Source: a virus
DNA length: 28,054 nt
Virus record (IMG/VR): IMGVR_UViG_3300032331_001499
Span: 1 to 28,054 of that record
Direction: 5' to 3' (one strand)
The first letter of the stretch is position 1; each line of letters opens with the position of its first letter. The notes below the pieces were generated by a model. The model did not search any database. It saw only the letters and a list, made by a program, of their open reading frames with translations, and was not told the origin of the DNA. Both the position numbers and the translations under genes were made by a program. Shown one piece after another: positions 5,178-25,734 of this stretch.

Positions 5178-5645
5178 ATGGTAAACTGGTTATATAAAGG
5201 TAATAAAATTGAAAATGTAGAAGATTTCGGTAAACATACTCCATTCGGATTTGTCTATCTTATTTCTAATACCATTGATGGTAGAATATATATTGGTAAA
5301 AAATTCCTTCAACATAAAAAGACTAAAAAACTAGGTAAGAAAGTCATGGCTGAACAAACTGGTCCTGGTCGTAAAAAAACTAAAGAAGTTTCATACGCTG
5401 AATCAGATTGGAAAACATATTGGGGTAGTTGTAAACCATTATTAGAAGACGTGAAACGTTTAGGTGAAGATAAATTCTATAAAGAAATACTAGATCTAGC
5501 ATGGTCATCAAAACATCTATCATATCTCGAAGCTAAGTACCAATTTAAAACAGACGTCTTAGAAACAAATAGCTATAACGATAACATACAAGCAAGATAT
5601 TATAGAAAAGACTTGGCAACCCCAAGTTCTATTGATATATTGTAA
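5178..5645 (+). CDS. GIY-YIG-like nuclease, standalone
   Basis: The product has 155 residues. Residues 23-42 contain a GIY-YIG-like core (GFVYLISN, then GRIYIGKK). A basic insertion and a WxTYWGS segment follow, then the helix LSYLEAKYQF near residue 120, whose Glu could be the metal-binding catalytic residue. No NUMOD or HNH DNA-binding tail is present, unlike the three homing endonucleases further right. It sits directly between structural genes and the primase. Such short GIY-YIG proteins are found in T4-like phages and are often annotated as Seg-like endonucleases; it may be a housekeeping phage nuclease. The fold call is fairly good; the biological role is unknown. Confidence 0.65.
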   Translation: MVNWLYKGNKIENVEDFGKHTPFGFVYLISNTIDGRIYIGKKFLQHKKTKKLGKKVMAEQTGPGRKKTKEVSYAESDWKTYWGSCKPLLEDVKRLGEDKFYKEILDLAWSSKHLSYLEAKYQFKTDVLETNSYNDNIQARYYRKDLATPSSIDIL

Positions 5646-5647
5646 GT

Positions 5648-6577
5648 ATGGTAAATCAAGCTTTAGTAGCAACAATAAATTCTGTTTTAGGTACTGGTAA
5701 GTCTACCTCTAAAGGTAATTTTGCTTACCATTGTCCATTCTGTAATCATCATAAACCTAAACTTGAAGTCAATTTATCTGAAAATGAAAAAGGTGAACAT
5801 CCATGGCATTGTTGGGTTTGTGATAAAAGAGGTAAAAGCTTAGTTAAACTATTTAAATTAATAGAAACTACTGCTGAAAAAATAAATGAACTAAAATCAC
5901 TAGTAAAATACACATCAGGTGTAGAAACAGTAGTAGTTGATAAAAAAGTAGAATTACCTAAAGAATTTAAACCACTGTCAAACCAATATAATAGCATCGC
6001 ATATAAGCACGCAATCAGCTATTTAAAACGCAGACAAGTTACATCTAACGACGTTATTAAGTATAATATAGGTTATTGTGAATTCGGCAAGTATAACAAC
6101 TGTATTGTAGTACCATCATATGATAAAGATGGAATTTTAAATTATTTTACTGCTAGAAGTTTTGATAAAAACTCATCTATAAAATATAAAAACCCAGATG
6201 TATCCCGCGATATAATACCGTTTGAGTTGTTTATTAACTGGAATATACCAATTATATTATGTGAGGGACCATTTGATGCACTTGCTATTAAACGCAATGT
6301 TATCCCACTGTTAGGCAAAAATATTCAACAAAATTTAAGAAAAAAATTAGTTACATCTAAAGTACAAAAAATATATATAGCATTAGATAAAGATGCTATT
6401 AAACAAGCTCTATCATTTTGTGAGGAGCTGATCAATGAAGGTAAAGAGGTATATTTGGTAGATATGCAAGATAAAGATCCTGGTGAAATGGGATTTGAAA
6501 ATTTTACAAATCTAATCCAACAAACCATTCCATTAACATTCTCAAGTCTATTTGAGAAAAAACTCCAATTAGTATGA
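5648..6577 (+). CDS. DNA primase (zinc-ribbon plus Toprim, T4 gp61-like)
   Basis: A primase makes RNA primers for lagging-strand replication, working with the replicative helicase. An N-terminal zinc ribbon is visible (C29, C32, C55, C58, with nearby His28 and His35). A central region carries the primase-like segments VVPSYDKDGILNYFTARSF and YKNP. A Toprim domain follows, with ILCEGPFDALAI (catalytic Glu) and IYIALDKDA (the DxD-type metal site). The length of 309 residues fits short phage primases such as T4 gp61 and is well below DnaG. No C-terminal helicase domain is present, so the helicase must be encoded elsewhere. The stop overlaps the next start (ATGA), suggesting coupled translation with the nuclease. 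Confidence 0.85.
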   Translation: MVNQALVATINSVLGTGKSTSKGNFAYHCPFCNHHKPKLEVNLSENEKGEHPWHCWVCDKRGKSLVKLFKLIETTAEKINELKSLVKYTSGVETVVVDKKVELPKEFKPLSNQYNSIAYKHAISYLKRRQVTSNDVIKYNIGYCEFGKYNNCIVVPSYDKDGILNYFTARSFDKNSSIKYKNPDVSRDIIPFELFINWNIPIILCEGPFDALAIKRNVIPLLGKNIQQNLRKKLVTSKVQKIYIALDKDAIKQALSFCEELINEGKEVYLVDMQDKDPGEMGFENFTNLIQQTIPLTFSSLFEKKLQLV

Positions 6578-7344
6578 GCAAAATAAAGCACTCGTATAAG
6601 CGTTTATTAGAAATTTCTGATGACCATAAACAAATAACACTACCAGATTCTAGATATTATAGAAGAAATAGTGATTATTATCCATCTGTCACTTATGTGT
6701 TAGGAACATATCCTAAAGGTAAACATTTTGAAGATTGGTTAAAGAAAGTAGGATATGCTTCAGAACATATAGTTAAAAAAGCAGCTGAAGATGGTACTCA
6801 AACTCATGAAATGATTGAGGAATACTTAAATGGTGAAGAATTAAAATTTTTAAGTTCATATGGTGTACCACAATATGATCCAAATGTTTGGATTATGTTC
6901 CTACGTTTTGTAGATTTTTGGGAGACATACAAACCTAAATTAATAGAAACTGAAGTACACTTATTCTCAGATGAATTAAAAGTAGCTGGTACATGTGACT
7001 TAGTTTGTGAAATTGATGGTGAGTTGTGGATTATTGACTTTAAGACATCTAATCATTTACAAACAGTATATGAATTACAAACAGCTGTTTACAAACAATG
7101 TTACAAAGAATGTTATGGTTTAGAAGCTGATCACGCCGCTGTGTTATGGTTAAAATCATCTAAACGTAAGGCTAGTAAAGATAAAATGCAGGGTAAAGGA
7201 TGGGAAATAGCTGAGTCAGAACGTACATTTGAAGAAAATTTAGAAATATTCAAAACAGTACGTAAGTTATTTGATCTTGAGAATCCTAAGTCAGCACCTG
7301 TATTCGAGTCGTTTAGAACTACCGCAAAACGAGAAGACTTGTAA
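6574..7344 (+). CDS. PD-(D/E)XK (RecB/Cas4-type) nuclease
   Basis: The product has 256 residues. The order of motifs fits the PD-(D/E)XK nuclease superfamily: His78 in THEMIEEYL, Glu126, Asp142 in GTCDLV, Asp155-x-Lys157 in IIDFKTS, and Gln169 in YELQTAVYK. This is the RecB/Cas4/lambda-exonuclease-like arrangement. No four-cysteine iron-sulfur cluster pattern is evident, so a true Cas4 is unlikely. It overlaps the primase stop by four bases, which points to a role in phage replication, recombination or host DNA degradation. The nuclease fold is well supported; the polarity and substrate are not determinable. Confidence 0.8.
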   Translation: MSKIKHSYKRLLEISDDHKQITLPDSRYYRRNSDYYPSVTYVLGTYPKGKHFEDWLKKVGYASEHIVKKAAEDGTQTHEMIEEYLNGEELKFLSSYGVPQYDPNVWIMFLRFVDFWETYKPKLIETEVHLFSDELKVAGTCDLVCEIDGELWIIDFKTSNHLQTVYELQTAVYKQCYKECYGLEADHAAVLWLKSSKRKASKDKMQGKGWEIAESERTFEENLEIFKTVRKLFDLENPKSAPVFESFRTTAKREDL

Positions 7345-7379: not shown

Positions 7380-8048
7380 ATGAATAAAGAATTTCTTAAA
7401 ATGCAAAAGTTGGCTGGTTTAATTACTGAAAGTCAATTTAAACAATTAGTTGAGAATGGAACTATTACTTACAAAGGTCCAACCGAAGATTCCCCATATC
7501 GTAAAGAAATATACCGTGATAATAAACCTCTTTTAACTGCTGAAACTAGTCAAGAAGAGCAAGGAAAAATATCAATGATGCTCAAAGGAGAAAACATTAT
7601 TGATCAAATGTATGAACCTTCTCAATTAGCTGACGTTTTAGGTTATGACAGCGTAAAAGAATTAGCCCAAGCTGTAGCAGAAAAAATTGATGCTCAATTC
7701 TCAGAAGACATCAATGAAGTTCGTACATCATATCGCCTAGGTGATGATATATTTGATGCCATATATATAGACATTATCCAACCTGATGAAGATGAATCTA
7801 ATTCAGATAATGGTGGATTATTTGATGAACCTGGAATGGATGGGTACACAGGAGGTGTTGGATTTAAAACAGGTCGTCAAAGGAATGAAAAAGGAATACT
7901 AATCCATACAGTAGAACAAGAAAAAGATTATCTAAAGTATTTAAAGAAAAAAGCAGATGAAGGAAATGAAAAAGCTATAGAATTATTTAGAATAGCCAAA
8001 ACACTTCCTGAAGTACAACCCCTTCTTAAACAATTAGGATTTAATTAA
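7380..8048 (+). CDS. Accessory virion-type protein with FLKMQKLAG leader
   Basis: The product has 222 residues of unknown function. Residues 5-20 (FLKMQKLAGLITESQF) recur almost exactly inside the gene at 22029, residues 142-157, showing that this is a mobile peptide module. ITE at 15-17 would fit the L/I-x-E cleavage rule of T4-type prohead proteases. The rest is acidic, with a predicted alpha/beta region around residues 85-140 and a basic, helical C-terminus (KDYLKYLKKKADEGNEKAIE). No catalytic motif is recognised. Its position at the head of the cassette and the module suggest an internal virion protein, which is inference. Confidence 0.6.
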   Translation: MNKEFLKMQKLAGLITESQFKQLVENGTITYKGPTEDSPYRKEIYRDNKPLLTAETSQEEQGKISMMLKGENIIDQMYEPSQLADVLGYDSVKELAQAVAEKIDAQFSEDINEVRTSYRLGDDIFDAIYIDIIQPDEDESNSDNGGLFDEPGMDGYTGGVGFKTGRQRNEKGILIHTVEQEKDYLKYLKKKADEGNEKAIELFRIAKTLPEVQPLLKQLGFN

Positions 8049-8117: not shown

Positions 8118-8915
8118 ATGATAAAACTAACAGATCTATTAAAAGAGGTACAAAATAAACCAAAAGCCATCATAATGGCTGGAGGAGCATCAGTAGGTAA
8201 ATCAACAATCTTAAAAACAATTGAGTCGCGATTAAGTGGATTTGAAAACTTAAATGCCGATAAATATGTAGAAGATAAAGATTCATCTATGTTCGGTAAT
8301 CTATCAGCGGCATCATCCCAAATAAGAAAAAATGACCTACCAGATACTATAGAAGCTAAACGTAATTTAATTTACGACACAACGGCTTCTAACTTATCTA
8401 CTCTCCAACCAACATTAGACATGTTAAATGAAAGTGGATATGATGTAATGATGATAATGGTTTATGCTCACCCTATAGTATCATTTTTAAGAAACTACAA
8501 ACGTGAACGTAAAGTACCAGCAGCTGGTGTTTTGGGTACTTGGGCTAATGTTTACAATTTATTGGACGAGTATAAAAATATATTTGGAGATAATTTTATT
8601 TTAGTAAACACACCCTCGAACCCAGAAGAAGAAGCAGAAATTGCTAATTTTGAAAAAGCATATCAAGATGGTATCTTAAAAGAATACTTTAATAATTTAC
8701 TATCATCAGGCCAATTTATATCATCATTTAGAAAAGATGATACTGAATTATCACCTAAAGAAAAAGCTAAAAAAGAAAAAACAAGAGAAAAAACAAAACA
8801 ACAACTTTATCAAAACATTGATAAAATAGCTAATACTTACGGAGATATTCAATCTAAACTAAGTCCTATAGATAGTAAACAACTTCCAAATATAGTTAAT
8901 AATTTTATTAAATGA
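8118..8915 (+). CDS. P-loop kinase (PNK/zeta-toxin-like) with leader peptide
   Basis: The product has 265 residues. Residues 1-10 (MIKLTDLLKE) form the recurrent leader, with LKE as a possible L/I-x-E cleavage point. A Walker A motif follows at 22-30 (GGASVGKST) after a hydrophobic strand (KAIIMA). LIYDTTAS near 84-91 and VMMIMVYAHP near 110-119 fit the next strands of a P-loop kinase. The arrangement resembles polynucleotide kinase, zeta toxin or AAA-33-type kinases; the substrate is unknown. The C-terminus is a charged helical region (KEKAKKEKTREKTKQ). Translation starts near a putative promoter and overlaps the next gene by four bases. Met20 as an alternative start would delete the first strand and is less likely. 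Confidence 0.7.
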   Translation: MIKLTDLLKEVQNKPKAIIMAGGASVGKSTILKTIESRLSGFENLNADKYVEDKDSSMFGNLSAASSQIRKNDLPDTIEAKRNLIYDTTASNLSTLQPTLDMLNESGYDVMMIMVYAHPIVSFLRNYKRERKVPAAGVLGTWANVYNLLDEYKNIFGDNFILVNTPSNPEEEAEIANFEKAYQDGILKEYFNNLLSSGQFISSFRKDDTELSPKEKAKKEKTREKTKQQLYQNIDKIANTYGDIQSKLSPIDSKQLPNIVNNFIK

Positions 8916-10438
8916 ACTCATTAGTTAAATCACTTATATTACCATTTTTAACTGAAGTTGATTCTTTAGGTGAAGGATTAACTGTAGGTTTATTTGGAGG
9001 TGGATTTCAACCACCAACTAAGGGTCATTTTGAAGTAGTTAAAAAAGCTATAGAAAAATACAATCCAAACAAATTTATTATATTTGTTGGAACAGGAGGT
9101 GGAAGATCAGATATCACTCAAGATCAATCATTAGCTATTTGGAATATCTATAAAAATTATTTACCTGATAATGTTGAAATTATAGCTTCACCAAACCCAG
9201 TATCTTCAATCTATAGATATGCTAAAGAACATCCATTTGAAGATATTAAATGGTTTTTAGGATCTAGACAAGGTAATGACCAAGATTTTCAAGATTTTTA
9301 TAAACGCTCTAAAGCAGCGGATACTCGTGATAATTTAGAAGCTATTAATATTATCACTACTAATGATGTTAGTGGTACTAAAGCTAGACAAGTATTAACA
9401 GATAAAGAAACATTATTTAATTATCTACCAACTGAGTTATCAGATAGTGAAAAAGAAGAAGTATATAGTATTCTTAATCCAATATCCGAAGGTGAAGAAA
9501 TAACAACTTGGGTTGATGAAGAAATAGATAATGATAATTTAGATATAGATACAACAGGAGTATTAGATGATACTGATATAGTCATATCTAAACATGTTAA
9601 AGATAGAGCAAAAGAAAGAAATATTAGTACTAATGATATTGAATTATTTTTTCAACATCTAAAACAAGATTCTGAAGCTAATGATGAACTTGAAATAGAT
9701 TTACAATATAATAACGCTGTTGCTTCTGATCTTAATAAAACAAAATCAAAGCCAAATCCAACAAATATTAATATTCCACTTTCGAAAATTAAAAATAACC
9801 AAACTGTAGCTACTACTATAATGAAAGGTAAAAACTTTACACCTAATAGTGCTAGAGAACCTAAAATAGTTTTTGAAAAAGTTGTAGGTGATAGTATAGT
9901 TTGTGATAATTGTGGTTGGACATGGAAGATAAAAGATGGTGGGGACGATTTATATATTTGCCATAAATGTGGGCATGATAATACTCCTAAAGAAACAAAT
10001 AATTTCTTTGAACCATTAAAAGGAGAAGATACAATTGAACAACATGGCTTAGAACATGATAAAGATTTTATAAAAAAATTAGTATCATTAACAGACTATA
10101 TGATGGGTCATATTAATATTGAACCACTACCAGATATTAATTTTGTTGAAGATGATGTTAAAAACGCTGATAATTTTTTTGGTAAAACAGCGTATTATGA
10201 CCCAAATAGTAAATCAATCACGTTATACACACTAAAACGCCATCCTAAAGATGTATTACGCTCTTTCGCACATGAGATGGTACATCATAAACAAAATCTT
10301 GAAGGTAAATTAACAAACATACAAGGTCATGATATAAATGAAGACGATTATTTAAAAGAATTAGAACGTGAAGCATATGAGTATGGTAATGGTTTATTAT
10401 TTAGAGGTTGGGAAAATTCAATAAAAGAAAATGATTAA
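8912..10438 (+). CDS. Nucleotidyltransferase, zinc ribbon and zincin fusion
   Basis: The 508-residue product contains three recognisable modules. Residues 24-165 form an NMNAT/cytidylyltransferase-like fold with FGGGFQPPTKGHF (TxGH motif at 36-39) and VSGTKAR (153-159), the usual ISGTxxR motif. Residues 226-250 (SKHVKDRAKERNISTNDIEL) form a small helical element. A zinc ribbon follows with C331, C334, C350 and C353. Residues 440-500 carry a zincin metalloprotease motif, AHEMVHH (H454, E455, H458), with possible third ligands among Glu484-Glu490. The start MNSLVKSLILPFLTEV is a divergent leader with LTE. The nucleotide substrate is not known; nicotinamide mononucleotide is one possibility. Overlaps on both sides indicate a tight operon. 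Confidence 0.75.
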   Translation: MNSLVKSLILPFLTEVDSLGEGLTVGLFGGGFQPPTKGHFEVVKKAIEKYNPNKFIIFVGTGGGRSDITQDQSLAIWNIYKNYLPDNVEIIASPNPVSSIYRYAKEHPFEDIKWFLGSRQGNDQDFQDFYKRSKAADTRDNLEAINIITTNDVSGTKARQVLTDKETLFNYLPTELSDSEKEEVYSILNPISEGEEITTWVDEEIDNDNLDIDTTGVLDDTDIVISKHVKDRAKERNISTNDIELFFQHLKQDSEANDELEIDLQYNNAVASDLNKTKSKPNPTNINIPLSKIKNNQTVATTIMKGKNFTPNSAREPKIVFEKVVGDSIVCDNCGWTWKIKDGGDDLYICHKCGHDNTPKETNNFFEPLKGEDTIEQHGLEHDKDFIKKLVSLTDYMMGHINIEPLPDINFVEDDVKNADNFFGKTAYYDPNSKSITLYTLKRHPKDVLRSFAHEMVHHKQNLEGKLTNIQGHDINEDDYLKELEREAYEYGNGLLFRGWENSIKEND

Positions 10439-10931
10439 ATTAAAAGAGTTATTAGAAAAAGTTGAAAGTGACAAGTATACTATCTATTGTGATTTAGATG
10501 GTGTGTTAGTTGATTTTGAAAAAGGTTATGAAGAAGCAACAGGTAAACCAATGACTAGCGCAGGTGAAGGTCCTGAATTTTGGGAACCAATACATAAAAT
10601 AGGAGCTTCATTTTGGATTAAATTAAAATGGTTACCTGATGGACAAACATTATGGAATTATATTAAACCATTTAACCCAACATTATTATCAGCACCCTCA
10701 CAAGAGGAATCATCTAGAATAGGTAAACGAGTATGGAAGAAAAATAACCTCCCAGATGCTAAAATGATTTTGACACCAGCTAAGTTTAAACAAAAATATG
10801 CTGGGGAGAATAAAATACTTATTGATGACATGGAAAGAAATATTCAACAATGGAAAGATAAAGGTGGAATAGGGATATTACACACATCTGCTGCAGATAC
10901 AATTAAACAATTAAAAGAACTAGGACTATGA
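10431..10931 (+). CDS. HAD-family phosphatase (5'-nucleotidase-like) with leader
   Basis: The product has 166 residues. The leader is MIKLKELLEKVE. HAD motif I is DLDGVLVDF with Asp21 (nucleophile) and Asp23. A motif II-like Ser88 occurs in LLSAPS, Lys111 or a nearby lysine could serve as motif III, and motif IV is ILIDDMERN with Asp132 and Asp133. The pattern fits small 5'(3')-deoxyribonucleotidase-type HAD proteins. It would hydrolyse a phosphate monoester, perhaps a nucleotide, but the substrate is inferred. It overlaps the previous gene by eight bases and the next by four. The cap region is short. Confidence 0.8.
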   Translation: MIKLKELLEKVESDKYTIYCDLDGVLVDFEKGYEEATGKPMTSAGEGPEFWEPIHKIGASFWIKLKWLPDGQTLWNYIKPFNPTLLSAPSQEESSRIGKRVWKKNNLPDAKMILTPAKFKQKYAGENKILIDDMERNIQQWKDKGGIGILHTSAADTIKQLKELGL

Positions 10932-16986: not shown

Positions 16987-17003
16987 GTATGAAAACAATA
17001 ATA
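16980..17003 (+). promoter_or_regulatory. Inverted repeat looping out the start codon
   Basis: TATTATTGT (16980-16988) and ACAATAATA (16995-17003) form a perfect nine-pair stem whose six-base loop, ATGAAA, holds the start codon of the endonuclease gene. It could restrict translation from long read-through transcripts. Confidence 0.45.
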
Positions 17004-17642
17004 TATTATTTACATAGAGGAGACAAGGTTCCATTCTATGTTGGGAAAACTAAGAATCTAAAAAATAGACTAAATACACATAAAAGTATTTTTGGAAAAA
17101 ATATCTATATAGAATGTATAGATAAAGTGGATGATTGGAAATATTGGGAAAAACATTATATAACTCTTTTTAAAAATTTAGGATATATCCTAGAAAATAA
17201 AAATGAAGGTGGTGGAGGTCCATCTGAAGGAGTTGTTTTTCCTGAAGAAAGAAAACAAAAAATTGGTCAAGCTAATAAAGGTACAATCCATCCCATAGAA
17301 GGTAGATTAGCGGCTAGTCAAAAATTAAAAGGACGTAAACTTTCAAAAGAGATATGTGAAAAAATTCGTTTAGCTAAAACCGGTAAACCTAATCCTAAAA
17401 AAGGTAAACCTGATGGTCCTAAACCTAATGTATCTAAAGCTCATAAAGGTAGAGTAAGTCCTAATAAAGGAAAAAGTAATCCTGTGGTTTTATATAAAAC
17501 ATCAGGTGAATATGTTAAAACATACTCTAGTTACCATGATTTAGCTCTTGACCTACAAATTAACCCAGAAACAGTAAGATGTCAACTTATTGGTAAGGCT
17601 CAAACTATCAAGAATAAGCAATATAGAGCACAATATGTATAA
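16989..17642 (+). CDS. GIY-YIG homing endonuclease with NUMOD repeats
   Basis: The product has 217 residues. The GIY-YIG domain spans about 1-80: IIYYL at 4-8, FYVGKT at 16-21, Arg27, catalytic Glu54 in YWEKHYI and the terminal Asn72 followed by EGGGG. NUMOD3-like DNA-binding motifs follow (PEERKQKIGQANKGT and SKEICEKIRLAKTGK) together with Lys/Pro/Gly-rich linkers. A NUMOD1-type helix-turn-helix ends the protein (KTYSSYHDLALDLQINPETV). Such free-standing endonucleases cleave related genomes lacking the gene and spread by homologous repair. It sits between two cassette genes, most likely as an insertion. All key catalytic residues seem intact. Confidence 0.88.
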   Translation: MKTIIYYLHRGDKVPFYVGKTKNLKNRLNTHKSIFGKNIYIECIDKVDDWKYWEKHYITLFKNLGYILENKNEGGGGPSEGVVFPEERKQKIGQANKGTIHPIEGRLAASQKLKGRKLSKEICEKIRLAKTGKPNPKKGKPDGPKPNVSKAHKGRVSPNKGKSNPVVLYKTSGEYVKTYSSYHDLALDLQINPETVRCQLIGKAQTIKNKQYRAQYV

Positions 17643-18866: not shown

Positions 18867-21800
18867 ATGAGTAATATTCATAAATTAATAGAACATTTAG
18901 TTAACAATTGGTCAAACAATTTATCTGAGGCATTAGCTCCAAGAGTTAAGCAACAGTTAATGGACAAATTCAAACAAGAAGCAGATGATTTTGATATCAC
19001 GATTGCTGATAAACAATTAAGCGATTATATCGATTATTTTGATGCTCGATTAAAAAATAATCCTAAAGTAACTGAAAAAGATTTATCTAAGTATCCATTA
19101 AAGTCATTAATTAAACTTGTTTCAGCCTACAAAGGTTCAAGTAAAGAAGAAGATGACGAAGACATATCAAACATACCAGATGTTGTTTATAATGAAAATG
19201 GTCTTATAATTTATAGTGGTCATAATGAAGAAAACTGTTTAAAGTTTGGTAAAGGTGAACAATGGTGTATTACTAGAGGTTCATTTGGTAACTATCGTTA
19301 TGATGCTAATAGAAAAAATCCAACATTCTACTTAGTAAAAGATACCAACTTACCAAACAGTGATAGAAAAAGTTTCTTTGTTGTTGTAGTAGGTAGTGAT
19401 AATACTTACAAAGTATCAGACAGATCAAATAATGACGTTGGTGGTAGAGGAACAGAATGGAACAGATGGGAACCATGGTCATTTGTTGAACAACAATTTC
19501 CTTCCGTTCAAGGTTTAGAAAGAATATTTAAATATGTTCCTATTGGTAAAGTTGAATTATCAACTCGCCAATATGCTAACAACGCTATGAATGTTGAAGA
19601 ATGGGAGGTAGCACCACCAGACTTTAAAGAACGATATCTTATCATCAGAAAAGGAAAAAAACTTTTTAATGATATTACTAATGAAAAATTTGTAAAAACT
19701 ATCCTCCCAGACAGCCAAGACATGGCTACAGTAGTAGCTAAAAACTATGGGATGATAGATATAAATACATTATTGCAAGAATTTGATTCTTTCTCTAACC
19801 AAAACCAAAAATCAATTATAGCTAATGCTAGAAGATTTACAAAAGTACCTACAGAGATTTTAAAATCACGTGGTATCCCATTCTCAGCTAAAAAAGCAGT
19901 AGTTAGTGGTGGATTGCTTGATATTCCTGGTGATGAAAGATATTATGTCTCTAGTGATGATAAGGCTATAATTAAATTAAAATTTAGTGGTGATGACATA
20001 TCAATGGGATTATTCACTGAAAAAGATACATACCCTAATGTTAAAGTAAACTCTCGTACAAGTAGTATATTAAGAAGTTTACCTAGATTTGATGAGATGC
20101 CTTTTGATGCTTTATTAAAGTTAACAAAAGATAATCTTTTGCCTAAAGATACTGTCACTAAAGTAATTGATAAATCAAAAGAAGAAGACTCTAAATCAGC
20201 TATTATAACAGCAAACACTGATGAAGGCGAAATAGTGTTAGATACAAATACTTTTAAGGCATATAAATCTGAAAATGGAGAATATACATCAATACCATTT
20301 GAAGATGATTCTGTCCAAAGTATACTAAAATCAGATACAGTAGGGGGTGGTATTCAAGATGGTATTATAAGGATAGTTTCAGCATTTGACAGCATCCCCC
20401 CATCAGTACTACCTATGTCAACTGTAGTCTCAATAGTGAAACAAACTCCACCAGAAAAAAGAATAGTAAGAAAAGGAGATGAAAGTTTTATAATAATACC
20501 TAGTAGTACAGGGAATGAACTTAATTTATGGAATACAAATAATCCTTTAGATAGAAGTTCTGTAGCATTTAATTATAGAGAAGATGGAAGATTTGGTAGT
20601 GGAAAAATGGCAAATCAAGAAATATGGTCTGAATATTTTAATTATTTAAGATCTCAAAATTTAGCTTATGATTCTTCCCAACTTCTTGGTTTAGCTAGTT
20701 CCCAATACTATGCCGGATCTAAATTTTTAGCTGCTAACCCTCCTTTAACAGCTGATAATACATACAAACCTGCTCAATATGAAGGAACATGGTATATTAT
20801 AAACCAGAATAACCCGTCAGAAAGTAGAAAACTTAGCCCACAAACAGGTAATATACTTAGAGCTAATCTTACCCCAGCTAAAGTATCTACAATACTAGGA
20901 ACAAGACCACCCGCAGGAGCAGTTAGGGGTACTACAACACCTAGAACACCTAGAACAACCGCCGCAGCAGCAGCTACACCACCTGCAACTACCGGTCAAG
21001 TAAATGATGCTGTACGACAAGCAATTGTTGGGGCAGGTTTAGAACAAGGATTTTCTGCTTTGCCAACCCCACTTAGAAGTAGAATATTATCAGGTACATT
21101 AGTAGCTAATGATAATGGAGTAGCGGGTCGTAATAGAGCATTAGGAGACAGAGGACGAGTTACTAGAATTATATCTGCTGGTCAAAGTAGAATGTATATT
21201 ATTCGTTTAGCTAGTGGTACTATGATAGGACAAGCATCATTCCAACCTGAAGCAAGACACTTTATTATAACTGCTGCTAGCGCGTTTAATATGGGTAGAG
21301 TAGGTAACTTTATAGATGCTTTAACAGCTCGTAACTTACGTGAAACAGAAGACATATTACGAGTAGCAATAGGAGCAGCAACACCAGAAGAATTAGAAGA
21401 AATTAAATCTAAAGCTAAAACTAAACCGTATAAGGACTTAGAAGTAACCAACGAACATATCATTCGTGAGTTTGATGAAAATATTGATCCTATTGAACTT
21501 AAATGGCATCGTGATAATGAAAACCGAATAATAGAAATTGTAGGTAAAACTGATTGGAAAATACAATTAGAAAACCAATTACCAATTTCTATGAACCAAC
21601 CTATTTCAATACCTAAAGGTGAATGGCATCGCGTTATCAAAGGTAATGGTAAGTTAACTTTAAAAATAATTAAAGAAGAATCTACTCAATATAATATTGA
21701 AGGATTATTATTAACTAACACTGAAGATCGCCCACAAAAAGATATATTATCTGATATACGTTCATTACCTGGTGTAACAATTGTATCAAGTAAAGATTAT

Positions 21801-21992
21801 GATTTATCAGGCGAAACATCCGCATTTAGTAATCCTAACTATTACACAATACTTAAAATTAAAGTAGATCCACATCCATATCCTAATGGATTTAAAGATG
21901 AAGATTTACAACAATTATTTACTGACATTAGAGCAATTAAAGGTGTTAGAAACTTTAAATTAAACAAATCTATAGAAAAGAAAACAGTTTAA
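18867..21992 (+). CDS. Giant mosaic virion-type protein, 1041 aa
   Basis: The N-terminus MSNIHKLIEHLVNNWSNNLS is a leader-like helix with LIE and LSE. Residues 110-190 hold a GKGxxWCI-type module (EENCLKFGKGEQWCITRG, Cys124 and Cys134, then FYLVKD), which I recall from phage and giant-virus proteins of unknown function. A long middle region follows without recognised motifs. Residues 689-712 are a Thr/Pro/Ala linker (TTTPRTPRTTAAAAATPPAT). A cupin-like fold occupies about 860-940 (ELKWHRDNENRIIEIVGKTD, then IPKGEWHRVI). The last 95 residues look like a ferredoxin-like or ACT-like domain (LPGVTIVSSKDYD to IRAIKGVRNFKL). It is the longest gene here and may be ejected with DNA; that is inference. 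Confidence 0.65.
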   Translation: MSNIHKLIEHLVNNWSNNLSEALAPRVKQQLMDKFKQEADDFDITIADKQLSDYIDYFDARLKNNPKVTEKDLSKYPLKSLIKLVSAYKGSSKEEDDEDISNIPDVVYNENGLIIYSGHNEENCLKFGKGEQWCITRGSFGNYRYDANRKNPTFYLVKDTNLPNSDRKSFFVVVVGSDNTYKVSDRSNNDVGGRGTEWNRWEPWSFVEQQFPSVQGLERIFKYVPIGKVELSTRQYANNAMNVEEWEVAPPDFKERYLIIRKGKKLFNDITNEKFVKTILPDSQDMATVVAKNYGMIDINTLLQEFDSFSNQNQKSIIANARRFTKVPTEILKSRGIPFSAKKAVVSGGLLDIPGDERYYVSSDDKAIIKLKFSGDDISMGLFTEKDTYPNVKVNSRTSSILRSLPRFDEMPFDALLKLTKDNLLPKDTVTKVIDKSKEEDSKSAIITANTDEGEIVLDTNTFKAYKSENGEYTSIPFEDDSVQSILKSDTVGGGIQDGIIRIVSAFDSIPPSVLPMSTVVSIVKQTPPEKRIVRKGDESFIIIPSSTGNELNLWNTNNPLDRSSVAFNYREDGRFGSGKMANQEIWSEYFNYLRSQNLAYDSSQLLGLASSQYYAGSKFLAANPPLTADNTYKPAQYEGTWYIINQNNPSESRKLSPQTGNILRANLTPAKVSTILGTRPPAGAVRGTTTPRTPRTTAAAAATPPATTGQVNDAVRQAIVGAGLEQGFSALPTPLRSRILSGTLVANDNGVAGRNRALGDRGRVTRIISAGQSRMYIIRLASGTMIGQASFQPEARHFIITAASAFNMGRVGNFIDALTARNLRETEDILRVAIGAATPEELEEIKSKAKTKPYKDLEVTNEHIIREFDENIDPIELKWHRDNENRIIEIVGKTDWKIQLENQLPISMNQPISIPKGEWHRVIKGNGKLTLKIIKEESTQYNIEGLLLTNTEDRPQKDILSDIRSLPGVTIVSSKDYDLSGETSAFSNPNYYTILKIKVDPHPYPNGFKDEDLQQLFTDIRAIKGVRNFKLNKSIEKKTV

Positions 21993-22028: not shown

Positions 22029-22943
22029 ATGGAAATTAACAGACTACGTTCAATTATAAGAGAATCAATTAGTAACAATCTTAAAGAAATTGAAGATGTT
22101 GCTGAAAACGCGGCTATGGAAGCTAAATTAAATGCTTATACTGAAGCGATTGAAAAAGTAAACAAGAAAATTGAAATGGCTGAAAGCCTTGAAGAAATGC
22201 AAGAATTAGTAGATCCTACTAAATTAAATGAACTTAAAAAACATTTAAAAAATCTTGAAAAATCAAAAGCTAAATTAGAAAAAGTTAAAACTAAGAAAAA
22301 CAAAGGTAAAGAAGTAGTAACTGATGAACCTGTTGAAGAAGCAGTAGACAATATAGAAGCTGGAGAATTTGATATTCCTTATAACGCTGGAACAGCTGAA
22401 GGAGATTTTAAAGATGAAGATCATGAGGCTTATTTTGAAGTGAACGAGTCATTCCTTAAAATGCAAAAATTAGCAGGTGTAATCACTGAAGCTCAATACA
22501 ATCAAAAAAAAAGCTTAACTGAGAACCAAATAGAAGAAAACTATGTACTAGATGCTATGGGTACTGTATTAGTAGGAGGTGTTGGATTGGTATTAGCAAC
22601 AGCTGGTGTTGTTGGTGGTACTGCTTTAGCTCTAGATAATATCCAATATGGTCCAATAGGTGATACTATCAAAAAATTAAAAAACAAAATAAGTGATCGT
22701 AAATTTAATAAATATATTAGACCAATACTCCTTCGTTTTAAAAACGATCAAGTATTACAAGATATGTTTGGAAAATATAACTCAGCATCCTCCTTTGAAT
22801 TTGATGCTATTAGAAAAGAAATTGCTGACTATATTGAAAGTAAACTTTCATCTAAAGAGTTAAAATACATTAAAGATGTTGTTGATTCATTACATATGTC
22901 AGATCTATCTAAATCATTTAAACAAGAAGATGATATGATGTAA
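22029..22943 (+). CDS. Leader-bearing protein with internal FLKMQKLAG module and membrane segment
   Basis: The product has 304 residues. The start MEINRLRSIIRESISNNLKE is a leader with IRE and LKE. Residues 25-95 form a Lys/Glu-rich coiled coil. Residues 142-157 (FLKMQKLAGVITEAQY) repeat the N-terminus of the gene at 7380 nearly exactly. A Gly/Val/Ala-rich hydrophobic segment at about 178-202 (VLVGGVGLVLATAGVVGGTA) could cross a membrane. The last 90 residues are helical and basic to acidic. A leader, a second cleavage-like module and a possible membrane helix would suit a protein processed in the capsid and delivered to the membrane on infection; this is speculative. Confidence 0.6.
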   Translation: MEINRLRSIIRESISNNLKEIEDVAENAAMEAKLNAYTEAIEKVNKKIEMAESLEEMQELVDPTKLNELKKHLKNLEKSKAKLEKVKTKKNKGKEVVTDEPVEEAVDNIEAGEFDIPYNAGTAEGDFKDEDHEAYFEVNESFLKMQKLAGVITEAQYNQKKSLTENQIEENYVLDAMGTVLVGGVGLVLATAGVVGGTALALDNIQYGPIGDTIKKLKNKISDRKFNKYIRPILLRFKNDQVLQDMFGKYNSASSFEFDAIRKEIADYIESKLSSKELKYIKDVVDSLHMSDLSKSFKQEDDMM

Positions 22944-23093: not shown

Positions 23094-23735
23094 ATGACTA
23101 AAATATATCTTGTTGAAAATTGTTATGGTGATCCTAATAAAGTTTATATAGGTAAAACTAGAAATTCAAGAATAGGTCCACATAAACGAACATATGGTAA
23201 AAATATAACTTATACAATTATAGATGAAATATATAGTTTAGACCATAAATTATGGAAACCACTAGAATCATATTGGATAGAACAATTTAGACAGTGGGGA
23301 TTTGAGTTAATGAATATTAATAAAAAAGGAGGACAAGGCCCAGGAATATATTCAGAAGAATCTAAAATAAAAATGAGGAAACCCCGCAAAAAAGGAACCG
23401 GAGAGAAAATAAGTAAAAGATTAAAAGAAAATAATCATTCACAATACTACACAGATGATGTTAGAAAGAAAATAAGTAAAGGTAATAAGGGTATACCTAA
23501 ACCATTCACTGAAGATCATATACGAAACATCGGTTTAATTAAACGTAAGAATGCCAAACGGGTACTCATGTATGATTTAGAAGATAATTTAATTAAAGAA
23601 TGGGAATGTAAGAGTCAAGCAGCTGAATGGATAAAAGAAACAAAGAAAAGACAAGGAAATTTGACCTCCCAGATAAAAGATGCTATATTAGGTAGGCAAA
23701 AAACAGCTTTTGGATATAAATGGAAATATAAATAA
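23094..23735 (+). CDS. GIY-YIG homing endonuclease, upstream of FAD gene
   Basis: The product has 213 residues. The GIY-YIG domain spans about 1-85, with KIYLVE at 3-8, VYIGKTR at 17-23, Arg26, Glu58 in LESYWIEQF and an Asn near 74 followed by KKGGQGPG. The central part is basic with NUMOD3-like segments (DVRKKISKGNKGIPKPFTED). A C-terminal NUMOD1-like helix-turn-helix (YDLEDNLIKEWECKSQAAEW) ends in GRQKTAFGYKWKYK, nearly the same ending as the endonuclease at 25090. The catalytic set looks intact. It stands directly upstream of the FAD dehydrogenase, whose ATG follows two bases after this stop. Confidence 0.87.
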   Translation: MTKIYLVENCYGDPNKVYIGKTRNSRIGPHKRTYGKNITYTIIDEIYSLDHKLWKPLESYWIEQFRQWGFELMNINKKGGQGPGIYSEESKIKMRKPRKKGTGEKISKRLKENNHSQYYTDDVRKKISKGNKGIPKPFTEDHIRNIGLIKRKNAKRVLMYDLEDNLIKEWECKSQAAEWIKETKKRQGNLTSQIKDAILGRQKTAFGYKWKYK

Positions 23736-23737
23736 TT

Positions 23738-25051
23738 ATGGAATATAATAAAAAAATTGTAATTGTAGGAAGTGGAGTCGCAGGTATTAATGCTGCTACT
23801 AAGTTAGTAGATAACGGCTACCCAGGTGAATTGATTACTATAATTGATAAAGGACGAGGTCCATATGAACGTCAACCTGAAGAAGTAATGTGTGGATTTG
23901 CCGGAGCAGGTGCATGGAGTGATGGTAAATTAACATACCATACTGCTATTGGAGGTGTACTATCAAAATACTGCGGTGAAGAGAAAGCAATGGAGTTAAT
24001 GGATCAAGTCATTAGTAACTTTAGACGTTTCCACCCTAAACCAGAAGAAATATTTTGCTCTGATCCACAAGCAGAACCTGATTTTATTAAACCATATTTT
24101 GGGTTACGTTTATTCCCAGTATGGCATATTGGTTCAAATTATCTACATGAAATTGCTAAAACATGGTATCAATATTTAGTTGATAAAGGTGTTAAATTTG
24201 AATGGGAAACTGAAGTAGATAAGATTGAATTTGCTAATAATAAACTTCACTATAACAGAATGTGGCATTTTGAACCACAGAGTGAATGGATTAATTATAA
24301 TGAACTAATATTTGCTGTAGGCAAATCAGGTATTGACTTTGGTAAAAAATTAGCAGATAGTTATCAATTACCTACAGAACCAAAATCAGTACAAATTGGA
24401 GTTCGTTTTGAAGCACCACAAAAATATTTCCAAAAACTAATTGATATTAGCTACGATTTTAAACTATACCAAAAGTTTGATAATATATCATTACGTTCAT
24501 TCTGCACAAACAACAACGCAGCTTATGTAGCAGTAGAAGAAACATATGGTGATATTACTTATAATGGTCATGCTAAGAAAGGTGAAGAATTTGAAAACCA
24601 AATGACTAATTTTGGTATTTTAATGGAAATCAAAGGTATTGATAATCCATTTGAATGGTCAAGGGATGTTGTTAATAAATTACAAATTGGTGGAACAGGT
24701 TTATACTACAGCCCATTAAGAAATCCATCTAAAACATCAGAACATGAGTTAATTAACACTACTCAAATCTTTGATTTAACTACAGTTAAAGAAGTAATGG
24801 GTGAATATTTTACATATGTTGAAAACTTTATCAATGATATGGATAAAATATTTGAATTTGGTGATGATTGGGGCGTATATATACCCGAGTGCAAATATTT
24901 AAGTCCCGAGCCTCTTGTAAATTATGAGGATTTAAGTCTTACTAAATATCAAAATGTATATTTTGCTGGAGATGCTCTATCAGCAAGGGGTATAACAGTA
25001 GCGGGTAGTCAAGGCATTTATATAGCTGAAAATATTTTAAAGAAAAATTAA
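23738..25051 (+). CDS. FAD-dependent dehydrogenase (COG2509-like)
   Basis: The product has 437 residues. The N-terminal Rossmann motif is IVIVGSGVAGINAA, with Gly11, Gly13 and Gly16 of GxGxxG and an acidic residue at the end of the second strand (IIDKG). A Cys/Gly-rich segment follows (CGFAGAGAWSDGKLT). The C-terminal FAD motif is VYFAGDALSARGITVAGSQG (Asp412). This order matches the uncharacterised COG2509 FAD dehydrogenases. The substrate is unknown. It would be cytosolic; no signal peptide is seen. An intact metabolic oxidoreductase is unusual in a phage and suggests acquisition from a host. It is flanked on both sides by GIY-YIG endonuclease genes with similar C-termini. Confidence 0.8.
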   Translation: MEYNKKIVIVGSGVAGINAATKLVDNGYPGELITIIDKGRGPYERQPEEVMCGFAGAGAWSDGKLTYHTAIGGVLSKYCGEEKAMELMDQVISNFRRFHPKPEEIFCSDPQAEPDFIKPYFGLRLFPVWHIGSNYLHEIAKTWYQYLVDKGVKFEWETEVDKIEFANNKLHYNRMWHFEPQSEWINYNELIFAVGKSGIDFGKKLADSYQLPTEPKSVQIGVRFEAPQKYFQKLIDISYDFKLYQKFDNISLRSFCTNNNAAYVAVEETYGDITYNGHAKKGEEFENQMTNFGILMEIKGIDNPFEWSRDVVNKLQIGGTGLYYSPLRNPSKTSEHELINTTQIFDLTTVKEVMGEYFTYVENFINDMDKIFEFGDDWGVYIPECKYLSPEPLVNYEDLSLTKYQNVYFAGDALSARGITVAGSQGIYIAENILKKN

Positions 25052-25062
25052 TTTTAATGTCT

Positions 25063-25098
25063 GGGGCGTATATTTATAATAAATAAATTATGCGCCCT
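25063..25098 (+). promoter_or_regulatory. Start-codon-sequestering hairpin
   Basis: GGGGCGTATA (25063-25072) pairs with TATGCGCCCT (25089-25098), ten pairs including two G-T wobbles, around a 16-base A/T loop. The start codon at 25090-25092 lies inside the 3' arm. Transcripts reading in from upstream would hide the start; transcripts beginning inside the loop would not. Confidence 0.6.
25071..25084 (+). promoter_or_regulatory. TATTTATAATAAAT start-proximal motif
   Basis: This near-consensus copy lies inside the hairpin at 25063-25098 and six bases before the ATG at 25090. Confidence 0.5.
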
Positions 25099-25734
25099 TA
25101 TATTTACTTAGTTAAAACCCAGCAAGATAAAATAGTTTATATTGGTCAACAAATTGGAACTAAATCTATAAATGAATATAAAGGTTCTGGTTTATTACTA
25201 AATCGAGCCTATAAAAAATATGGTGAATATTATTTTAAACGAGAAATAATTGAATATTGTGATATAAGTGAGTTAAATAATAAGGAAAAATTATATATAA
25301 AACAATATAATACTAAATTTCCTCATGGATATAATTTAACAGATGGTGGTGATGGTAATAAAGGTTTAAAATTTACTAAAGAGCAAAAGCAAAAAATTAG
25401 TCAAAGTAAAATAGGACAAAAATATCCAAAAGAACATGGTGAAAAAATAAGACAAGCTAAATTAGGTAAAAAACATAATCAAGAAACTATAAATAAAATA
25501 ATTCAAACTAAAGCATCTAAACATAATATTCAGTCTAATTTGGATTTAAAAAATCAATATAAAAGTAATTCACAAAAATCCATACTCCAATATGATTTAC
25601 AAGATAATTTACTTAATGAATACCAATCAGCTCAAGAAGCAGGTAGATGTTTAAATAAATCAGGTAACCAAATAGCAGATTGTGCTTCAGGCCGTCAAAA
25701 AACAGCATATGGTTATATCTGGAAATATGTATAA
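25090..25734 (+). CDS. GIY-YIG homing endonuclease (Seg-like), downstream of FAD gene
   Basis: The product has 214 residues. The GIY-YIG domain spans about 1-90: YIYLV at 4-8, VYIGQQ at 16-21, YKGSGLLLNRAYKKYG at 30-45, Glu66 in NNKEKLYIKQY and Asn82 in YNLTDGGDGN. The YKGSG variant is typical of the Seg/I-TevII-like branch. NUMOD3-like repeats follow (TKEQKQKISQSKIGQK and YPKEHGEKIRQAKLGKK). The C-terminal NUMOD1-like segment ends in GRQKTAYGYIWKYV, close to the end of the gene at 23094. The catalytic residues seem intact. Its start codon lies within a hairpin arm, suggesting tight translational control. Confidence 0.88.
   Translation: MRPYIYLVKTQQDKIVYIGQQIGTKSINEYKGSGLLLNRAYKKYGEYYFKREIIEYCDISELNNKEKLYIKQYNTKFPHGYNLTDGGDGNKGLKFTKEQKQKISQSKIGQKYPKEHGEKIRQAKLGKKHNQETINKIIQTKASKHNIQSNLDLKNQYKSNSQKSILQYDLQDNLLNEYQSAQEAGRCLNKSGNQIADCASGRQKTAYGYIWKYV

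Follow-up and report, generated by a model that had tools for sequence, protein, structure and literature searches.

The window, that is, the whole stretch of DNA analysed here, is a 28,054-bp IMG/VR viral record, a 28-kb phage fragment. Its ORF listing includes an open frame at 8912..10438 on the plus strand that runs from ATG to stop and encodes a multidomain protein of 508 amino acids, referred to below as P0001. The features of this region are as follows (a slash marks a cut site).

7380..8048, plus strand: 222-aa ORF with a capsid-targeting-like N-terminus, FLKMQKLAGLITE/S (motif match; peptide also found in proteins of immuto)
8118..8915, plus strand: zeta/polynucleotide-kinase-like P-loop kinase that begins with the capsid-targeting-like MIKLTDLLKE (Zeta_toxin, 3.5e-13; AF2 pLDDT 89; Foldseek matches to zeta and PNK)
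8912..10438, plus strand: P0001 (open frame; full-length relatives L001-L007)
8912..8956, plus strand: capsid-targeting-like peptide MNSLVKSLILPFLTE, with a predicted prohead-protease cut after Glu15 (T4 IPII/IPIII spacing; N-terminal enrichment)
8975..9481, plus strand: HIGH-superfamily nucleotidyltransferase domain, residues 22-190 (PF01467; AF2 pLDDT ~90; Foldseek CoaD/NadD)
9017-9028, plus strand: TKGH, within the transferase domain
9371-9388, plus strand: SGTKAR, within the transferase domain
9548..9877, plus strand: BECR/RegB-like module, residues 213-322 (REGB_T4 sub-threshold, hhalign, invariant His and Thr; low pLDDT)
9593-9595, plus strand: invariant His228 of the BECR/RegB-like module
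9815-9817, plus strand: invariant Thr302 of the same module
9902..9970, plus strand: four-cysteine zinc ribbon, Cys 331, 334, 350 and 353 (recurs in relatives; Pfam ribbons sub-threshold)
10043..10435, plus strand: zincin metallopeptidase domain, residues 378-508 (AF2 pLDDT ~85; invariant active site; Foldseek IrrE-like)
10271-10288, plus strand: HEMVHH, the zincin active site
10364-10375, plus strand: EREA, candidate third ligand of the zincin domain
10431..10931, plus strand: HAD 5'-(3')-deoxyribonucleotidase-like phosphatase, a conserved partner (phrog_2643, 6e-25)

The preliminary description had placed the TKGH and SGTKAR motifs, a four-Cys ribbon and an HEMVHH zincin with Glu455 in one 508-residue chain, and all are present, at residues 36-39, 154-159, 331/334/350/353 and 454-459. 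Its domain list (transferase, ribbon and zincin) was correct as far as it went and missed the RNase-like module and the capsid-targeting-like peptide. The same fusion recurs in independent viral contigs: L001 is 83% identical to P0001 over residues 1-508, and L002-L007 are full-length relatives at 50-70% identity. dN/dS lies between 0.05 and 0.25 in each domain, indicative of purifying selection. Together these results exclude an assembly or joining error, and P0001 is a maintained gene. Searches of bacterial and archaeal genomes found no relatives, comparison with PADLOC defence-system proteins gave no match, and a PDB sequence search with either the whole protein or the BECR-like module returned nothing useful. 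Among Pfam families, CTP_transf_like scores above its cut-off on P0001, and DUF4258, zinc ribbons and zincin families fall below theirs. An AlphaFold2 model built with 27 sequences has a mean pLDDT of 71, with approximately 90 for the transferase, 85 for the zincin, 65 for the ribbon and 55 for the middle module, and low-confidence linkers at residues 192-221, 305-327 and 360-377. With a pTM of only 0.40, the model does not show how the domains are placed relative to one another. AlphaFold2 and Foldseek support both a HIGH-superfamily transferase fold and an IrrE-like zincin fold.

The transferase domain is matched by PF01467 at 23.6 bits (cut-off 21; E 6e-5), which places it in the HIGH superfamily. 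In 26 aligned transferase relatives Phe32, Pro34, Pro35 and His39 are invariant, residue 36 is either Thr or His, and Arg159 is kept in 25. With the whole P0001 model as query, the top Foldseek matches are CoaD and NadD structures (E 8e-8 to 5e-6), and for this reason the substrate is unreadable from the fold. Against viral models the same search finds phage "cytidyltransferase-like" multidomain proteins, the uncultured Caudovirales phage protein A0A6J5LVS0, and IrrE-like zincins.

The middle module carries the signature HxxDR...FF..L...V..D..T.I.IP...A.TIM. REGB_T4 is matched below threshold by 5 of its 12 members (best 0.0023), single members also match the endoribonuclease phrog_1323, and HHalign against an alignment of T4-like phage RegB gives a probability of 90% and an E-value of 1.7e-6 over 43 columns. 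His228 and Thr302 are kept in 12/12 members, and His228 aligns with RegB His48. The second catalytic residue of RegB is His68 (PMC3014915); at this position P0001 has Gln and its relatives have other residues, and orthology with RegB was rejected on the absence of this second histidine. The BECR RNases of polyvalent proteins are defined instead by a His in the N-terminal helix and a Thr or Ser in the C-terminal strand (PMC5512222), a pair that His228 and Thr302 provide. The fold itself is modelled at low confidence. From its sequence, residues 213-322 are a probable RNase of the BECR/RegB-like type, which may be active or may merely bind RNA. Relatives differ in this module: in L001 it is 98% identical to that of P0001 and its flanks are 88-91% identical, L003 has a transferase 95% identical to that of P0001 yet a divergent middle module (~40%), and L010 lacks the module. 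By these comparisons it is evidently exchanged between phages.

The four-Cys ribbon is shared by 16 homologous sequences. In the zincin, His454, Glu455, His458, His459 and Gln461 are invariant in all 52 aligned domains, fused and standalone, and Glu485, Glu487 and Ala488 are kept in 51, the remaining sequence being truncated. The active site of the fused proteins reads RHPKDxLRSxAHEMxHHxQN...ExEA, and HExxH, downstream Glu and fold, with Foldseek matches to viral IrrE-like proteins, identify the domain as a zincin. A large family of standalone homologues (L038-L080), 124-188 aa in length with one of 299 aa, is found in viral contigs, and others occur in Synechococcus phages B23 and S-SRM01; some of the L038-L080 proteins open with T4-like targeting peptides (e.g., MLKFKQFLAE/A in L073). 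The existence of standalone zincins makes it plausible that the zincin acts in trans.

Of the 40 loci that contain a HIGH domain, many of them near-duplicates, 36 have a homologue of the kinase immediately upstream. Of the four exceptions, three (L005, L036 and L081, the last from Flavobacterium phage immuto) have an N-terminal extension of the chain where the separate kinase gene would be; by Pfam this extension is a Pol-beta transferase in L036 (3e-8), weakly so in L005 (0.02), and has no match in immuto. The fourth, L049, couples the HIGH domain to DUF6267, with a standalone zincin following. Most loci that reach far enough have a 5'-nucleotidase downstream of the transferase gene or fused to it, as in L025 and L044, and in L097 (2165-7012) a single 1616-aa chain combines HIGH, a second HExxH zincin-like region, SOD, zincin, kinase and nucleotidase. 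Modules are swapped among relatives, some of which keep them as separate genes. The linkage of kinase, transferase and nucleotidase argues that these three small-molecule enzymes serve one function, and it would make chemical sense for a HIGH transferase to act after a kinase that forms a phosphate ester. The model of the kinase is similar to zeta toxin and polynucleotide kinases and is not clearly that of a nicotinamide riboside kinase.

Elsewhere in the window, the same gene cluster includes a 1041-aa ORF (18867-21992) with no Pfam match. There are also four homing-endonuclease-like ORFs: 5178-5645 (SegE GIY-YIG), 16989-17642 (GIY-YIG/NUMOD), 23094-23735 (no Pfam match) and 25090-25734 (NUMOD). 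The last two flank an FAD-oxidoreductase-like ORF at 23738-25051.

The N-terminus of P0001, MNSLVKSLILPFLTE/V, fits the capsid-targeting pattern of T4. Internal proteins IPII and IPIII of T4 start MKTYQEFIAE/A, with Y4, F7, I8 and E10, and targeting of IPIII depends mainly on residues 4 and 7, its processing on residues 8 and 10 (PMC9026906). Ile9, Phe12, Leu13 and Glu15 of P0001 reproduce this spacing of hydrophobic or aromatic residues and an LxE or IxE site, shifted by five residues; the mature parts of IPII and IPIII are unrelated to P0001. The pattern occurs at 8/30 ORF N-termini in the window against an internal background of 2.5%, at 20/148 in the complete immuto genome (2.2%; p 2e-10) and at 133/523 in the fetched loci (2.9%). 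The motif was fixed after the window N-termini had been viewed, and the loci and immuto come from phages related to one another; these tests are accordingly not fully independent and the p-values are indicative. Among the carriers in immuto are gp070, its prohead protease, and the neighbouring ORF gp067, and the kinase partner of P0001 keeps L4, L/I7, L/I8 and E10 in 23/23 homologues, with residue 9 variable. An S77 prohead protease is encoded in 6 of 14 records, immuto and five relatives; the 28-kb window stops short of that region. No such peptide is present at the first Met of L018, L025 or L049. A literature search found no virion proteome for immuto. Mass spectrometry has, however, detected NMNAT/cytidylyltransferase-like proteins in the virions of cyanophages S-SCSM1, S-CBWM1, S-SZBM1 and S-CREM2 (PMC9602691, PMC9146016, PMC10665884), and virion delivery of this domain class is therefore not new. 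Judged from sequence, the N-terminal signal probably packs P0001 into the virus head, which lends indirect support, through the T4-type N-terminus, the S77 protease of relatives and the cyanophage virion proteins, to the earlier suggestion that the protein is virion-delivered. The 222-aa ORF at 7380..8048 is probably another packaged protein of the cluster. The peptide FLKMQKLAG(L/V)ITE occurs both in this ORF and in ORF 22029-22943, N-terminal in one and internal in the other, and the internal copy is a possible prohead-protease site.

Several relatives of the cluster encode Fe/Mn superoxide dismutases with conserved metal ligands, either standalone (L099-L117) or fused (L025, L097, L098, L103 and L104), the latter including SODs embedded within transferase-zincin chains. 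All 13 of the 13 standalone phage SODs listed have a capsid-targeting-like start (e.g., MIKLTDILKE/V and MKLMSILTE/A), and these sequences suggest that the phage SOD is a virion-packaged antioxidant enzyme. No clear case of a cultured T4-like phage with this SOD family was found, the matches being mostly host-like or unannotated records. In the fused chains of L104 (2549-6316) and L103 (1428-5660) a stretch, VFEPKDI...GLYKYHCDPH, resembles by eye a cupredoxin copper site.

The order of domains in P0001 had been thought to lack a characterised precedent, but close counterparts exist in gp88 of Flavobacterium phage vB_FspM_immuto (immuto; YP_010114595.1), which is annotated as NMN adenylyltransferase NadR, and in UniProt entry A0A6J5LVS0. 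Like P0001, immuto gp88 is a single chain with a HIGH transferase and, at 49% identity over 131 aa, the same zincin; its gene follows primase and exonuclease genes and precedes that of a 5'-deoxyribonucleotidase. Unlike P0001 it is 907 aa long, has an extra N-terminal region akin to the L036 extension where P0001 has a separate kinase gene, lacks the BECR module (separate, in gp080) and the four-Cys ribbon, has a second HExxH zincin-like region at its C-terminus, and begins with a different N-terminus that is without the capsid-targeting-like peptide. A0A6J5LVS0, which tops the viral Foldseek matches with 30% identity across 535 alignment columns, is unannotated and, at 657 aa, longer than P0001. 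The cyanophage virion proteins share a HIGH-type transferase that is homologous by fold at the domain level only; they are shorter where size is given (286-362 aa), and no ribbon or zincin has been reported for them. The polyvalent proteins of Iyer et al. 2017 (PMC5512222) offer an architectural parallel, being phage-encoded and mosaic, with disparate enzymatic domains, a zincin hub and BECR RNases. The P0001 family has the same organization. By this sequence architecture P0001 ranks as a polyvalent protein and would work like one, although Pfam polyvalent MPTase models do not match it and text searches of PMC5512222 found no mention of HIGH/NMNAT, cytidylyl/adenylyltransferase or SOD. P0001 is no one-off enzyme: phage "cargo" proteins like it make up a broad family, largely uncharacterised, whose modules are shuffled.

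Taken together, P0001 is probably a head-packaged, multi-domain early effector of the polyvalent type, from a marine or freshwater, Immutovirus-like phage of the T4 superfamily that is related to immuto. The N-terminal peptide would send the chain into the prohead, a gp21-like S77 protease would cleave after Glu15, and the protein would be ejected together with the DNA. In the cell, the HIGH-fold domain may use a phosphorylated acceptor for AMP or CMP transfer; the neighbouring zeta/PNK-like kinase would plausibly make this acceptor, and the 5'-nucleotidase encoded next door would counteract it. The BECR/RegB-like module would cut or bind RNA, the zinc ribbon may aid partner binding, and the zincin, with its intact active site, would either free modules from the chain or cut a host or virion protein.

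The two roles for the zincin lead to different accounts of the protein. In the first, which merits tentative consideration, P0001 is a polyprotein whose linkers are cut by the zincin or the prohead protease, leaving the transferase, RNase-like module and ribbon to act on their own. The low-confidence linkers, the presence of the modules as separate genes in relatives, an IxE at residues 191-193 and the autoprocessing proposed for polyvalent MPTases (PMC5512222) are consistent with this; against it, standalone zincins, some with targeting-like peptides, indicate that the protease works in other contexts, and enrichment of LxE at internal boundaries is weak (21/38 against a shuffle mean of 14.2). 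Such LxE sites were considered as prohead-protease sites, since only 10 of 1000 shuffles reach 21/38, but the reversed motif gives 18/38 and internal processing at LxE is consequently not claimed. In the second account, likewise possible but to be held lightly, the zincin is an effector that cuts a host protein soon after injection, with the transferase and RNase-like module as independent weapons on the same carrier. Here the packaged appearance of standalone zincins, a weak similarity of the P0001 zincin to the M91 and XopG effector zincin families, and module swapping of the kind typical of arms-race proteins have to be set against the sub-threshold level of that similarity.

A broader and more speculative proposal would see the head-packaged proteins as a metabolic kit (kinase, nucleotidyltransferase, nucleotidase and sometimes SOD) that, with RNase-like and protease modules and often as one cargo polyprotein, acts in the first minutes of infection, before phage gene expression, to build or destroy a host nucleotide (a cofactor or an immune signal) by chemistry other than known NAD salvage.

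That the transferase is instead a true NMN adenylyltransferase, which restores NAD+ once host NADase defences have acted and is paired with a nicotinamide riboside kinase, the upstream gene product, in a split NadR-like arrangement, seems unlikely. A virion NMNAT has already been proposed as an NAD modulator by the cyanophage authors, whose virion proteins bear that name, and the reading can draw further on the HIGH fold with TKGH and SGTKAR, on NMNAT models among the best of the weak matches, on a kinase-transferase pairing that recalls NadR, and on the NadR annotation of immuto gp88. The best NMNAT equivalog nevertheless scores only 27.3 bits on P0001 against a cut-off of 112.45, and TIGR01527 15.9 bits against 181.2; the nearest structures are CoaD and NadD, and those nearest the kinase are zeta toxin and polynucleotide kinase. 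One study reported NadV from every phage in which it saw NadM (PMC9503650), whereas a search of 14 records, many of them fragmentary, found no NadV; PnuC, NADAR and Prs were found in none of 6 records, among them the whole immuto genome and a relative of 160.8 kb, with many again fragmentary. The low NMNAT scores and the absence of NAD-salvage partners weaken the NAD idea and leave unsupported both the NMN specificity and the role in counter-defence against NAD depletion that had been suggested for the protein. Least likely is an enzyme of the replication region that stays unpackaged and works in the cell where it is made, a reading prompted by the neighbouring DnaG-like (5648-6577) and PD-(D/E)XK (6574-7344) primase and exonuclease genes and by the absence of the peptide from some relatives, since in immuto the same cluster sits between tail and terminase/head genes and adjacent genes carry targeting-like peptides.

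The reading of P0001 as a packaged early effector gives the widely annotated, uncharacterised "cytidyltransferase/NMNAT" proteins of aquatic phages a probable delivery route and associates them with a conserved kinase-transferase-phosphatase set; its analysis also yields cleavage sites that are testable. The presence of the short N-terminal peptide on every one of the standalone phage SODs listed suggests, more generally, that it may let the injected protein repertoire of T4-superfamily phages be read from sequence.
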